The translations under genes were made by a program, and so were the position numbers. 39,484 bases of DNA from Patescibacteria group bacterium (GTDB lineage Bacteria > Patescibacteriota > Minisyncoccia > JAHIHE01 > JAGLIN01). The notes beneath the pieces were generated by a model. The model made no database searches and was not told the origin of the DNA. It saw only the letters and a list, made by a program, of their open reading frames with translations. Shown one piece after another: positions 3,689-27,103 of the stretch. Position 1 is the stretch's first letter. Each line of letters begins with the position of its first letter. The stretch is from the NCBI GenBank assembly GCA_019428855.1, contig JAHYJV010000009.1, positions 1 to 39,484 on the forward strand. The letters run 5' to 3'.

Positions 3689-4464
3689 TTACAGTATCAT
3701 AATTTTTTTATTTCGTCCAGAATCTGTATTAGTCCAACACATTCTGGACAATAAATTATTATTAATCATATAATCCACGGGGGATTGCAAGCCCAAGCTC
3801 CAATGATATCTTTTTGTATTATACCATATAATCCATTCTAACATTTTTTCATTGAATTGCTCTATCTCGTCAAAGTATATTTCATTTTGATCTATGAATT
3901 CTTCTTGAATTGTTCTGCCTATTTTAGATTCAAAGTAAAGAGGAAGATTTCTATTTTCCTTGAATTACGAAATTCAATATATTTGTCACCCTGAGCTTGT
4001 CGAAGGGTAGAAAATGCGTCAAATTTATCATAGTTCGACTAGCTCACTATGACAAATTTAGCTATTTCGTAATTCACGGTAGTTTTACAAAATATATCTA
4101 AATCTTTTTTGACTTTCTCTTTGCCCATATTAGGACAGACATCAAATCTTAATCTTTTTATTTCCTTTAATGTGATTGGGTGTATTTCTCTTTTATTGTT
4201 ATTCTTCCTTTTCTGTGATTTCTGATTTAGGCTAGTTAGCATATGTCCACTATCTTCATATAGCTTATTCCATAGGTAAAGGATTGATTGTTTTGCTCCG
4301 TAAGCATCTGTGGTGGCCTGTAGTCCATATTTTTTCCAAAAATTAATAATCTTTAACCTTTGCTTAGCTTCTTTGGTGATCATATGAGTATGGTAATGTT
4401 TTAACCCATAATTATACAATCTTGAGAAACCTTTGCAATGACCATATTTGAATCCTAACTGCAT
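3689..4464 (-). pseudogene. Decayed integrase-type transposase, middle lost and replaced by a palindromic element
   Basis: N-terminal HTH-like part (LKHYHTHMITKEAKQRLKIINFWKKYGL...) at 4464-4076. C-terminal part (GRTIQEEFIDQNEIYFDEIEQFNEKMLEWIIWYNTKRYHWSLGLQSPVDYM...) at about 3930-3689. The central catalytic region is missing. Confidence 0.75.
3962..4075. repeat. 114-bp REP/MITE-like palindromic element (GTCACCCTGAGCTTGTCGAAGGG family) inside transposase remnant
   Basis: Terminal inverted repeats GAATTACGAAAT...ATTTCGTAATTC. Inner TTTGTCAcccTGAGCTtGTCGAAgggT pairs imperfectly with its mirror TTTGTCATAGTGAGCTAGTCGAACTA. Confidence 0.75.
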
Positions 4465-21620: not shown

Positions 21621-21732
21621 TTGTCATTCTGAACTTGATTCAGAATCTTTTTTTTGCTAAGACTTATTTCTTGATTTAAAGTAAAATAAGATTTAATAGA
21701 CAGCAGATTCTGAAACAATTTCAGAATGACAA
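21621..21732. repeat. REP-like palindrome (GTCATTCTGAGCTTGATTCAGAATC family) in the dnaE-thrS intergenic region
   Basis: TTGTCATTCTGAACTTGATTCAGAATCTT... and mirror AGATTCTGAAACAATTTCAGAATGACAA. Confidence 0.75.
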
Positions 21733-22048: not shown

Positions 22049-23779
22049 ATGAACAAAGAAACACAACTCGAAATTAAAAGACCTTAGTTTGCGCACATTT
22101 TGGCCAGTGCTGTCATGGAAATGTTTCCAGAAGCAAAATTCTAAATTGGTCCGAATATTGAAAATGGATTTTATTATGATTTTGATCTTCCACGAACACT
22201 GATTCCCGAGGACTTGCCGATTTTACAAAGAAAAATGACAAAATTATCAACAAGAATCTTCCTTTTGAAAAACAATTCATTACTCATGAAAAAACCAATG
22301 AGCTTTTTAAAAAAGCAAGTCAATATTATAAAGTTGAAATTTTAAGTGGCGAGGCAAAAGATACCGAAGTTTCACTCTCTCGAACGGGCGAGTTTGTTGA
22401 CCTTTGCCGTGGTCCGCATATTGATTCCACTGGCGAGCTTGATATTAAATCATTCAAACAAACCAAAATTGCTGGCGCTTATTGGCGTGGAGATGAAAAA
22501 AATAAAATGCTCCAAAGAATTTATGGCGTGACTTTTAATAATAAGAAAGAACTAAAATCATATCAAATTAAACTTAAAGAAGCTGTCAAAAGAGACCACA
22601 GAAAATTAGGTAGAGAATTAGACTTGTTTTGCTTTTCTCCTCTTGTTGGTCCATGATTACCACTGTTCACGCCAAAAGGCACTATAATAAAAGAAGAATT
22701 ACAAAAGCATATTGAAAATGTTTGTCGCAATTATGGCTTTGAAAAAGTAATGCCACCTCATTTGACTAAAATTGATTTATACGAAATCTCTGGTCATGCC
22801 AAAAAATTTGCTAAAGAGCTCTTCCATGTAACATCTGAAGCTGGTCATGATTTAGTTATGAAACCAGTTCAATGTCCTCACCAAACACAAATCTATACCT
22901 CCAGAGTTAGGTCTTATAGAGATCTGCCCATTCGCTACATGGAGTCTGAAAACAATATCGTGCCGAAAAAACTGGTGAAGTTGGAGGTTTAAATCGAGTT
23001 TATGCCATCACTGTTGAAGACGCACACACTTTTTGCAGACCAGACCAAGTAAAAGATGAAATTATTGGATTAATCAATATCATTAAAAATTTTTATACGG
23101 CTCTCGGATTATGGGAAAATCACTCGGTTTCTCTTTCGGTGTGTAATTATGCCAGTCCAAATAAATATATTGGAGAACCAAAAGATTGGGATTTATGTGA
23201 AGAAATGCTTCAAATTGTTTCGGATGGAATGGGCTTGAATGCCAAACGATGCGAAGGTGTAGCCGCACTATATGGTCCAAAATTAGATTTTATGTTTAAA
23301 GATGCCATGGGCAAGGAAGTTCAAATTCCAACAGTTCAAGTAGATTTTGCAACGCCAAAGAAATTTAATTTTTTATACACCGACAAAGATGGGATTGAAA
23401 AAAACCAGTCATGGTGCATCGAGCAGTTCTAGGTTCTTATGAAAGATTTATGGCCCTTAATTGAACATTTTGCTGGCGTCTTCCCTGTTTGGATTGCACC
23501 TGTACAAGTCAGAATTCTGCCGATTTCTGAAGAAAAACATCTGGCTTATGCTCAGGAAATAAAAAAAAATTATTGACAAACGGTTTCCGCGTCGAACTCG
23601 AGAAAGACAATGAAACACTCGGAAAAAAAATTCGCTTAGCAAAAATGCAGAGAATACCCTATCTGATTATTGCCGGAGAAAAAGAAATTGAAGAAAATGA
23701 TATTACCGTTGAAAATCGTGGAAATGAAAAAGGTGAAAAAATGGAATTGTTGAAATTTATTGAAAAAATTACAAGTTAA
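22049..23779 (+). pseudogene. thrS: Threonyl-tRNA synthetase pseudogene (thrS)
   Basis: Pieces in several frames: [117 protein letters not shown]. In-frame TAG (22085), TAA (22142), TGA (22654) and several frameshifts. Confidence 0.95.
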
Positions 23780-23897
23780 ATAAAAAACCGGTCCTAGAAA
23801 TGATTTCTTCGTGTAAAATTAAACATATAAAAATCCGTTATAACGCGATTTTCATATATGAAAAATGAATATAAATTCTATACATAATTACAAATCA

Positions 23898-24258: not shown

Positions 24259-25662
24259 ATGAAATACTTCATCAAAACCTATGGCTGCCAAATGAACCAT
24301 TCCGATTCGGAACGAATTGCGGGGATTTTGGAATTGGCAAATTATGAAATGGTCAGAGAAGAAAAAGATGCAGACTTGGTCGTGATAAATATGTGTAGCG
24401 TTAGGGAATCAGCTGTCAATCGAATTTCTGGAAATTTTCATAAATATAAAAAGTATAAAATAATAAATTCAAATTTCAAAACAGTAATTACAGGGTGCGT
24501 TTTGGAAAGCGATAAGAGAAAATTTGATAAATTATTTGATTTAGTAATTGATATCAAGGAAATTGAGAAATTACCCAAGATATTAAAAGATTGTCATTCT
24601 GAGCTTGATTCAGAATCTTCAAAAAATATGGATTTAAACGCTACCATATCCTCTAGATTATTTATTTCTGAAATAGGCGTATATAACAACAATAAACAAA
24701 AGATTCTGAATCAAGCTCAGAATGACAATGATGTTATAAAAGATTATTTTAGTATCGCTCCTCAATATCAAAGTAAAATAACCGCTTATGTGCCAATTAT
24801 GACCGGCTGTAATAACTTCTGTACTTATTGCGTCGTGCCTTACACTAGGGGAAGAGAAAAATCACGAACGGTCAGGGAAATTATTGAAGAGATTACAAAA
24901 TTGATTGAAAATGGATACAAGGAAATCATTCTTTTAGGTCAAAATGTAAATTCATATAAACCAGATGATAAGACCGATTTTCCAGAATTACTACATCAAA
25001 TCAATGATATATCCGGTATTTTTTGGATAAGATTCATGACTAGTCATCCGAAAGACATTAGCGAAGAACTTATTAAAACCATCACCGATTGTAAAAAATG
25101 TACAGAGCATATTCACCTTGCACTGCAATCTGGCGATGATGAAATTTTGAAAATGATGAACAGAAAATATACAACAGAACATTTTTTAAATATCGTGAAT
25201 ATGATTAGAAATTATATTCCCGAAATTTCGATTACCACTGATATTATTGTCGGCTTTCCATTAGAAAAAGACGAACAATTTCAAAACACAGTTAAACTTA
25301 TGAAAAAGGCGAAATTTGATATGGCTTATATCAACAAATATTCTCCGCGAGCTGGCACAGTTTCTGCAAAGATGGATGACGACATCAGTTGGGAAGAAAA
25401 GAAGAATAGAGAAAATATTCTTACGGAGTTGCTCAAAAAAACCGCTCTAGAAAATAATAAAAAATATATTGGAAAAGTGATTGATGTCCTGATTGAAAAA
25501 ACAGATGATGAATATTTATATGGAAAATCAAGAAGTGGAAAAAATGTAAAGGTAGAATTAGATAATATTAATCAAGAATTAAGAGCTAGAATTGGCAAAT
25601 TCATGAAAACTAAAATAACCAAAGCTAAACCCTGGAATTTAGAAGGGCTAGTTTGGAGATAA
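24259..25662 (+). CDS. miaB: tRNA-2-methylthio-N6-dimethylallyladenosine synthase MiaB, with in-frame palindromic insertion
   Basis: MKYFIKTYGCQMNHSDSERIAGIL, radical SAM MTGCNNFCTYCVVPYTRGREKSR, C-terminal TRAM-like region. Start at 24259 preferred over ORF start 24199, which overlaps the terminator. Confidence 0.95.
   Translation: MKYFIKTYGCQMNHSDSERIAGILELANYEMVREEKDADLVVINMCSVRESAVNRISGNFHKYKKYKIINSNFKTVITGCVLESDKRKFDKLFDLVIDIKEIEKLPKILKDCHSELDSESSKNMDLNATISSRLFISEIGVYNNNKQKILNQAQNDNDVIKDYFSIAPQYQSKITAYVPIMTGCNNFCTYCVVPYTRGREKSRTVREIIEEITKLIENGYKEIILLGQNVNSYKPDDKTDFPELLHQINDISGIFWIRFMTSHPKDISEELIKTITDCKKCTEHIHLALQSGDDEILKMMNRKYTTEHFLNIVNMIRNYIPEISITTDIIVGFPLEKDEQFQNTVKLMKKAKFDMAYINKYSPRAGTVSAKMDDDISWEEKKNRENILTELLKKTALENNKKYIGKVIDVLIEKTDDEYLYGKSRSGKNVKVELDNINQELRARIGKFMKTKITKAKPWNLEGLVWR
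24591..24728. repeat. 138-bp palindromic element with perfect 29-bp inverted repeats, inside miaB
   Basis: TTGTCATTCTGAGCTTGATTCAGAATCTT (24591-24619) and its exact reverse complement at 24700-24728. Confidence 0.93.
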
Positions 25663-26170: not shown

Positions 26171-27103
26171 ATGTCAACTCTCCAACCTCTCATCGTCATT
26201 CTCGGACCAACTTCTTCAGGAAAAACTGAACTGTCTATGAAATTGGCAAAAAAATTTAACGGTGAAATTATCAATGCCGATTCTCGACAGATTTATCAAG
26301 AAATGTCTATCGGAACAGGCTCGCCAATTACAAGCTACAGGGGCTTTACCCCTGTAGCTACAGTGGTAAAGCCCCTGATTGTTAAAGATATTCCTCATCA
26401 TCTATTTTACATTAAATATCCTAAACAAAAATTTTCACTTTCTCAATATAAAAAACTGGCCGTCAAAACCAGCAATGACATTCATAAAAAAGATAAACTG
26501 CCAATTCTTGTTGGCGGCACGGGGTTGTATATCAGTGCTATTGTTGACAATCTTGAAATTCCCAAAGCTCCACCAAATAGCAAAATTAGGGAGAAACTAG
26601 AGAAACATACCGAAAAATATTTATTCAGTCGACTTGAAAAAATAGATTCAAAATCTGCCATGATCATCGGTCCGTATAATAAAAGAAAGCTAATAAGATC
26701 GCTTGAGGTTTTCGAGCTTACAGGAAAGAAGTTTTCAGTTCAACAAACAAAGGGGAACCCACTTTTTAATATTCTACAAATCGGCGTTAGAATTGAACGT
26801 GAGAAATTATACAAAAAAATAGATATGCGAGTAGATGAAATGATTAAACTAGGCTTGATTGACGAGACAATAAATTTGTCTAAAAAATATAAATCTAATA
26901 TTCCTGCTATGAGTGGAATCGGTTATTATGAAATTGGTTTATATCTCAAGAATAAAATGAATCTTGAAGATGCAATGCAAAGAATTAAATTCCGAACTCA
27001 TCAATATGCCCGTCGCCAAATTACATGGTTTAAAAAAGATGAAAGAATTAAGTGGGTTGATAATTATAAAGAAGCAGAAAAATTATTAAAGAATTTTTTA
27101 TAA
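26171..27103 (+). CDS. miaA: tRNA dimethylallyltransferase MiaA, with in-frame palindromic insertion
   Basis: IVILGPTSSGKTELSMKLAKKFNGEIINADSRQIYQEMSIGTGSP, IPHHLFYI, LPILVGGTGLYISAI, RTHQYARRQITWFKKD. Confidence 0.95.
   Translation: MSTLQPLIVILGPTSSGKTELSMKLAKKFNGEIINADSRQIYQEMSIGTGSPITSYRGFTPVATVVKPLIVKDIPHHLFYIKYPKQKFSLSQYKKLAVKTSNDIHKKDKLPILVGGTGLYISAIVDNLEIPKAPPNSKIREKLEKHTEKYLFSRLEKIDSKSAMIIGPYNKRKLIRSLEVFELTGKKFSVQQTKGNPLFNILQIGVRIEREKLYKKIDMRVDEMIKLGLIDETINLSKKYKSNIPAMSGIGYYEIGLYLKNKMNLEDAMQRIKFRTHQYARRQITWFKKDERIKWVDNYKEAEKLLKNFL
26334..26377. repeat. Short double palindrome inside miaA
   Basis: CAGGGGCTTTACC (26338-26350) and exact mirror GGTAAAGCCCCTG (26365-26377). Overlapping GCTACAGGGG-CTTTA-CCCCTGTAGC (26334-26358) and perfect CTGTAGCTACAG (26352-26363). 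Confidence 0.9.

Follow-up and report, generated by a model that had tools for sequence, protein, structure and literature searches.

The CGTC-tagged REPs were surveyed by Di Nocera et al. 2013 (PMC3733652). They carry an unpaired CGTC tag or its variants TGTC and CCTC, a stem of 8–9 bp beginning with AT, a loop of 4–5 nt and a short unpaired tail that is mostly CCA-like. Most of them form head-to-head (HH) dimers with spacers of about 20–100 bp. They are chiefly intergenic with some intragenic copies, and are found without an associated transposase gene. The same survey placed the Rickettsia elements RPE-4 and RPE-6 in this superfamily, and noted that Xanthomonas recB genes carry different REPs at roughly one site. 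RPEs were reported by Ogata et al. 2000, 2002, as cited in PMC2229807, PMC10969869 and PMC3733652.

Here we describe a palindrome inside the miaB reading frame of a Patescibacteria group bacterium. The window, that is, the whole stretch of DNA that was analyzed, is 39,484 nucleotides long and holds the following features.

24259..25662, + strand: miaB CDS, 467 aa, from ATG 24259; TIGR01574 above cutoff, Pfam UPF0004, Radical_SAM and TRAM
24592..24729, + strand: 46 inserted codons, CHSELDSESSKNMDLNATISSRLFISEIGVYNNNKQKILNQAQNDN, residues 112–157
24591..24619, + strand: left arm, a REP monomer consisting of T, tag TGTC (24592–24595), stem, loop, stem and tail CTT
24596–24603, + strand: first stem strand of the left arm, ATTCTGAG
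24604–24608, + strand: loop of the left arm, CTTGA
24609–24616, + strand: second stem strand of the left arm, TTCAGAAT
24620..24699, + strand: 80-nt spacer without stops in the miaB frame; a gapless 136-column alignment shows it to be homologous to the spacers that coding copies carry in other genes and genomes
24700..24728, − strand: right arm, a second REP monomer, inverted, so that the tags are outermost (HH dimer)
21622..21731, no strand assigned: HH dimer from the same REP family, non-coding, in the 110-nt class and located downstream of dnaE
26338..26377, + strand: unrelated palindrome of 20+20 nt (CAGGGGCTTTACCCCTGTAG/...) in frame in miaA, in a loop with other inserts in relatives

The host gene is a genuine miaB. 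The protein scored 402 bits against TIGR01574 (cutoff 355), with UPF0004 at residues 2–93, Radical_SAM at 178–347 and TRAM. The open frame begins further upstream, at TTG 24199. The insert lies in the interdomain linker between the UPF0004 and radical-SAM domains, and the preliminary description correctly placed it within an open miaB and in a tolerant linker. A repeat search of the window returned inverted arms of 39 nt that are 90% complementary (24581–24619/24700–24738), within which 24591–24619/24700–24728 match perfectly over 29 nt. The length of 138 bp (46 codons) and the perfect 29-bp arms described earlier held up, but the codons, counted from ATG 24259, are read one base later than had been described.

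Because the arms and spacer contain no stops in the frame used and the insert length is a multiple of three, ribosomes would be expected to read through. In the AlphaFold model, residues 115–160 are the only long segment with pLDDT below 50, and the rest matches the MiaB structures 7mjz and 7mjv. The insert appears to be translated as a 46-residue disordered loop outside the folded domains. As nucleic acid, a 158-nt stretch folded at −52.4 kcal/mol, compared with a shuffled mean of −21.5 (z = −9.1). The inserted peptide had no match in NCBIfam or Pfam. An Rfam match to MIR530 (38 bits, gathering 85) was discarded as one typical of long hairpins in general.

Each arm forms a hairpin of its own, with a TGTC tag, the stem ATTCTGAR/TTCAGAAT, the loop CTTGA and the tail CTT. 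We compared 90 distinct dimers (180 monomers) from the source genome and its relatives. The stem was 8 bp and the loop 5 nt (CTTGA-type) across the dimers. A 3-nt tail is present in this family and reads CTT, CTA or CTG. The TGTC tag was present in 155 of 180 monomers and on both arms of the window element. Monomers were selected for AT at stem positions 1–2, so an AT start of the stem is not an independent observation. Pairing within monomers was 0.972 against a shuffled maximum of 0.944; the third stem pair alternated between T-A (106) and C-G (55), and compensatory double changes were found in 65 cells. Dimer lengths had two peaks, 110 and 136 nt, and a further, longer class lay near 203. 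Concerted evolution between the arms of a dimer was rejected, as they differed by 3.88 mismatches compared with 4.02 for randomly paired arms. Belonging to the same dimer thus makes two arms no more similar, and the constrained unit is the monomer. By this anatomy, the element consists of two TGTC-tagged REP hairpins joined head to head, and it matches the CGTC REP superfamily.

In the source genome (981 kb), the arm family gave 37 matches at ≤3 mismatches, compared with 0 for the reversed control. We then surveyed about 406 kb of this genome by stretches, 82% of it within predicted genes. Most arms in this sample were intergenic. In-frame copies occurred as dimers in miaB and femAB and as single arms in ileS, a glycosyltransferase and a Wzy_C ligase; genes were identified by Pfam, except ileS, which was identified by eye. 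The proposed gene invasion of the RPE kind in this lineage is supported by these in-frame copies and by the position of RPE-4 and RPE-6 in the same superfamily (PMC3733652). The related non-coding palindrome noted at 21621–21732 was indeed an HH dimer of this REP family. At window 22080–23780, a threonyl-tRNA synthetase-like region is split over several frames, either as a decayed copy or through assembly frameshifts.

Further repeats were seen in the source genome (G000). On contig C44 (L068:1010–2077), an NlpC/P60 protein has two REP-like peptide stretches (CNFELVSES, CHSELVEPLQS). On contig C9 (L076:598–4434), an IleRS-like frame holds two in-frame REP remnants (KILNQVQDDS, FLRQAQNDK) and a stretch (VRHGESESN...) that, by eye, resembles an inserted histidine-phosphatase domain. 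A different family of repeats, in which outer TTTGAATTACGAAAT ends enclose inner TGTCACCCTGAGCTTGTCGAAGGGT-type units, occurs at window 3955–4076 and on several G000 contigs, and is almost wholly intergenic in the 406-kb sample.

When the window insert peptide was used as query, the same element was found in other genes of relatives. Ten coding elements aligned without gaps over 136 columns, with 96.9% of the helix positions paired. We searched 286 genomes of the class with a peptide profile, which favours coding copies by construction. Nineteen copies scored above 44 bits, all stop-free in long open frames (404–681 aa) and all confined to the family of the source genome, whereas matches below 37 bits were mostly arm-only or stop-bearing. 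These 19 copies represent about four insertion loci and are therefore not 19 independent events. The hosts of this 45-codon subclass are four gene families, namely miaB, femAB and two O-antigen-ligase-like (Wzy_C-like) families, so that in-frame insertion into unrelated conserved genes, an RPE trait, is present here. In the Wzy protein of G000, Pfam confirmed Wzy_C, and this protein is taken, from its matching insertion context, to be an orthologue of the first ligase family; the second family was assigned through similarity to the first.

We also ran a DNA-level covariance search, with at most 150 candidates scored per genome. Among the further dimers viewed in context, 40 of 41 were intergenic (79–183 nt) and one (136 nt) was in a gene. 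One intergenic copy with a homologous spacer was found (G007:C11:3830–3979), which makes the coding restriction strong rather than absolute. From these comparisons, the gene-borne copies are a spacer subclass of their own, distinct from most intergenic copies; the earlier assignment to a REP family is correct with this amendment. The stop-free spacer cassette, the copies almost only in open frames and the intergenic cousins with other spacers could point further, to a palindrome specialised for life in protein genes that spreads from gene to gene, with the MiaB, FemAB and MiaA linkers as docking sites exchanging unrelated palindromes. We regard this extension as possible but doubtful.

The 46 residues are not unique to this MiaB. 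A homologous spacer was found at the same miaB site in G000, G007, G009 and G011, the last three of which belong to other genera and have MiaB proteins ∼65–70% identical to that of the window. Among named genomes, the nearest relatives are MAGs with the labels Candidatus Paceibacterota, Parcubacteria and Moraniibacteriota. The assembly that contains the contig is fragmented (52 contigs), but an assembly chimera or error is hardly credible when several other assembled genomes, the named MAGs L094, L098 and L099 among them, carry this insert class at the same position. The miaB spacers of the four genomes formed one group (support 89/97), and the copies clustered by host gene, with 4 changes compared with a shuffled mean of 10.5. 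A homologous spacer at one site in four genomes, together with the grouping of the miaB copies, indicates an ancient insertion, one that would predate the divergence of several genera in this Patescibacteria family. Among the relatives compared, none had an empty miaB site similar enough in DNA to locate the junction exactly or to define a target duplication; no target-site duplication was obvious, and the orthologue flanks were too diverged to define an empty site.

The preliminary description had taken the perfect arms as a sign of recent insertion, that is, the arms would be perfect because they had no time to decay. The arm identity of 29/29 fits this reading, and the sampled genomes include no second species of the source genus that could date the insertion. 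However, pS was 0.15 in the arms, which are short, and 0.54 in the flanks. The arms are near-unchanged where synonymous sites are near saturation, and arm perfection is therefore no indicator of youth. Perfect 27-nt arms were also found in 8 of the 90 dimers. With the spacer shared by the miaB genes of three other genera, grouped by host gene, and with orthologous arms conserved beyond the synonymous expectation, a recent insertion is unlikely.

The element had also been called domesticated, which would make the insert a functional peptide of MiaB, and likewise of FemAB and Wzy, under selection at the protein level. The frame is kept in 19 of 19 copies, and the inserted peptide shows some conservation across genes. 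Against this, pN/pS was 0.60 in the spacer peptide compared with 0.24 in the flanks, a difference that rests on 13 partly non-independent pairwise comparisons. The segment is predicted to be disordered, it is absent in G013, G002 and G006, and unrelated palindromes take its place in G001, G003, G004 and G005. FemAB is filled in G007 but empty in its genus mate G010. Constraint is weak by these measures, and we consider a domesticated function very unlikely. The pattern indicates that the peptide is tolerated and not strongly selected.

We compared the linker in 13 family genomes with aligned MiaB. The window's class was present in four, a TGTCATTGCGAG palindrome, read as CHCEG...VARND, in three, a GTAGAGACGAGGCA palindrome in one and other or decayed repeats in two; the remaining three had no recognised insert. 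Sister genomes differed at the linker (G007 vs G013; G004 vs G009 and G011), and a MiaB tree of 16 rows requires at least 7 changes of occupant. Other Patescibacteria also have palindromes at this linker (e.g. L128, L143 and L161). Different palindromes at the same spot in relatives identify the MiaB linker as a recurrent landing site. The linker is permissive, and its occupants have been repeatedly gained, lost and replaced.

Individual linkers showed further changes. In the miaB of G004 (L040), a short, perfect palindrome, GTAGAGACGAGGCA-C-TGCCTCGTCTCTAC, takes the place of the linker, and native residues of the linker are lost. In the miaB of G009 (L044), a 24-nt in-frame insertion, CCTGTCCTGAGTTTGCCGAACGGA, is nested in the right REP arm. 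In four genomes, WIPAFAGMT-type repeats occupy a second MiaB site, which follows GQNVNSY. With the inserts in miaA and miaB, both tRNA A37 pathway genes in the window hold palindromes.

This turnover allows two histories, a single ancestral insertion followed by loss and replacement, or independent insertion time and again at one preferred miaB target (or an exchange of cassettes there among REP types with TGTCAT ends in common). Independent insertions of the same subclass at one site may have occurred. Occupation of one linker by the unrelated palindromes TGTCATTCTGA, TGTCATTGCGAG and GTAGAGACGAGGCA, with several of them at an identical codon, and the minimum of 7 changes on the MiaB tree are in line with repeated insertion or exchange. 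However, the window-class miaB spacers form one group, which fits a single origin for that class. We hold repeated insertion or exchange to be plausible while leaning against it.

Three Y1_Tnp genes were found in the source genome and more in relatives. No arms of the family lay in the 92 kb around 31 Y1_Tnp genes, and no mobilising transposase was identified for the window REP family. Movement is probably due to a trans-acting single-strand (HUH/Y1) transposase that acts on the REP hairpins.

Taken together, we think it probable that the insert is a TGTC-tagged REP dimer that arrived long ago in a permissive miaB linker. A head-to-head dimer of the CGTC type would have landed in the interdomain linker before the genera split. 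Ribosomes would read through it and add 46 residues as a tolerated disordered loop. The arms would be maintained at the nucleic-acid level, through hairpin selection or conversion from other copies; few synonymous changes and the compensatory stem changes argue for such upkeep. Occupants of the linker would be gained, lost and replaced over and over.

These results add Patescibacteria to the lineages with protein-coding palindromes, which are best known from Rickettsia, and reveal one interdomain linker of a conserved enzyme that unrelated palindrome families have invaded in relatives. They also caution that arm perfection does not date an insertion. It can now be tested whether in-frame repeats are merely tolerated, why some linkers are used again and again, and why arms stay palindromic while the spacer drifts. 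We found no report of intragenic REPs in Patescibacteria in the literature searched. Nor did that literature describe the coding spacer subclass or a protein linker used repeatedly by unrelated palindromes.

Compared with known systems, REPINs mobilised by RAYTs (GTAG REPs, PMC3116915) likewise consist of two inverted REP hairpins around a spacer, and Y1 transposase genes occur in the source genome. However, their tag is GTAG whereas it is TGTC here, the Y1 genes examined have no flanking repeats of this family, and the window element family has neither the GTAG tag nor a REP-flanked RAYT gene. Nematomorpha palindromes, as described in PMC6649704, are likewise perfect inverted repeats inside coding genes, but of animal mitochondria. 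RPEs, as portrayed in the sources cited above, share in-frame palindromes of about 105–150 nt in unrelated conserved genes, which add tens of residues, and several element families within one lineage. They belong to another phylum, and the Patescibacteria peptide has no matching domain model; unlike RPEs as so portrayed, several unrelated families have invaded one protein linker here.

The CGTC REPs (PMC3733652) share the TGTC tag variant, an 8-bp stem starting with AT, a 5-nt loop, a short tail and mostly HH dimers, as well as a mainly intergenic location with some intragenic copies and no linked transposase. The tail is mostly CCA-like there and CTT/CTA/CTG here, and that survey covers five phyla without Patescibacteria. 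The conserved 45-codon spacer subclass in gene-borne copies is a feature of the Patescibacteria elements, unlike the CGTC REPs. For different REPs sharing one site, Xanthomonas recB (PMC3733652) is a precedent on a smaller scale.
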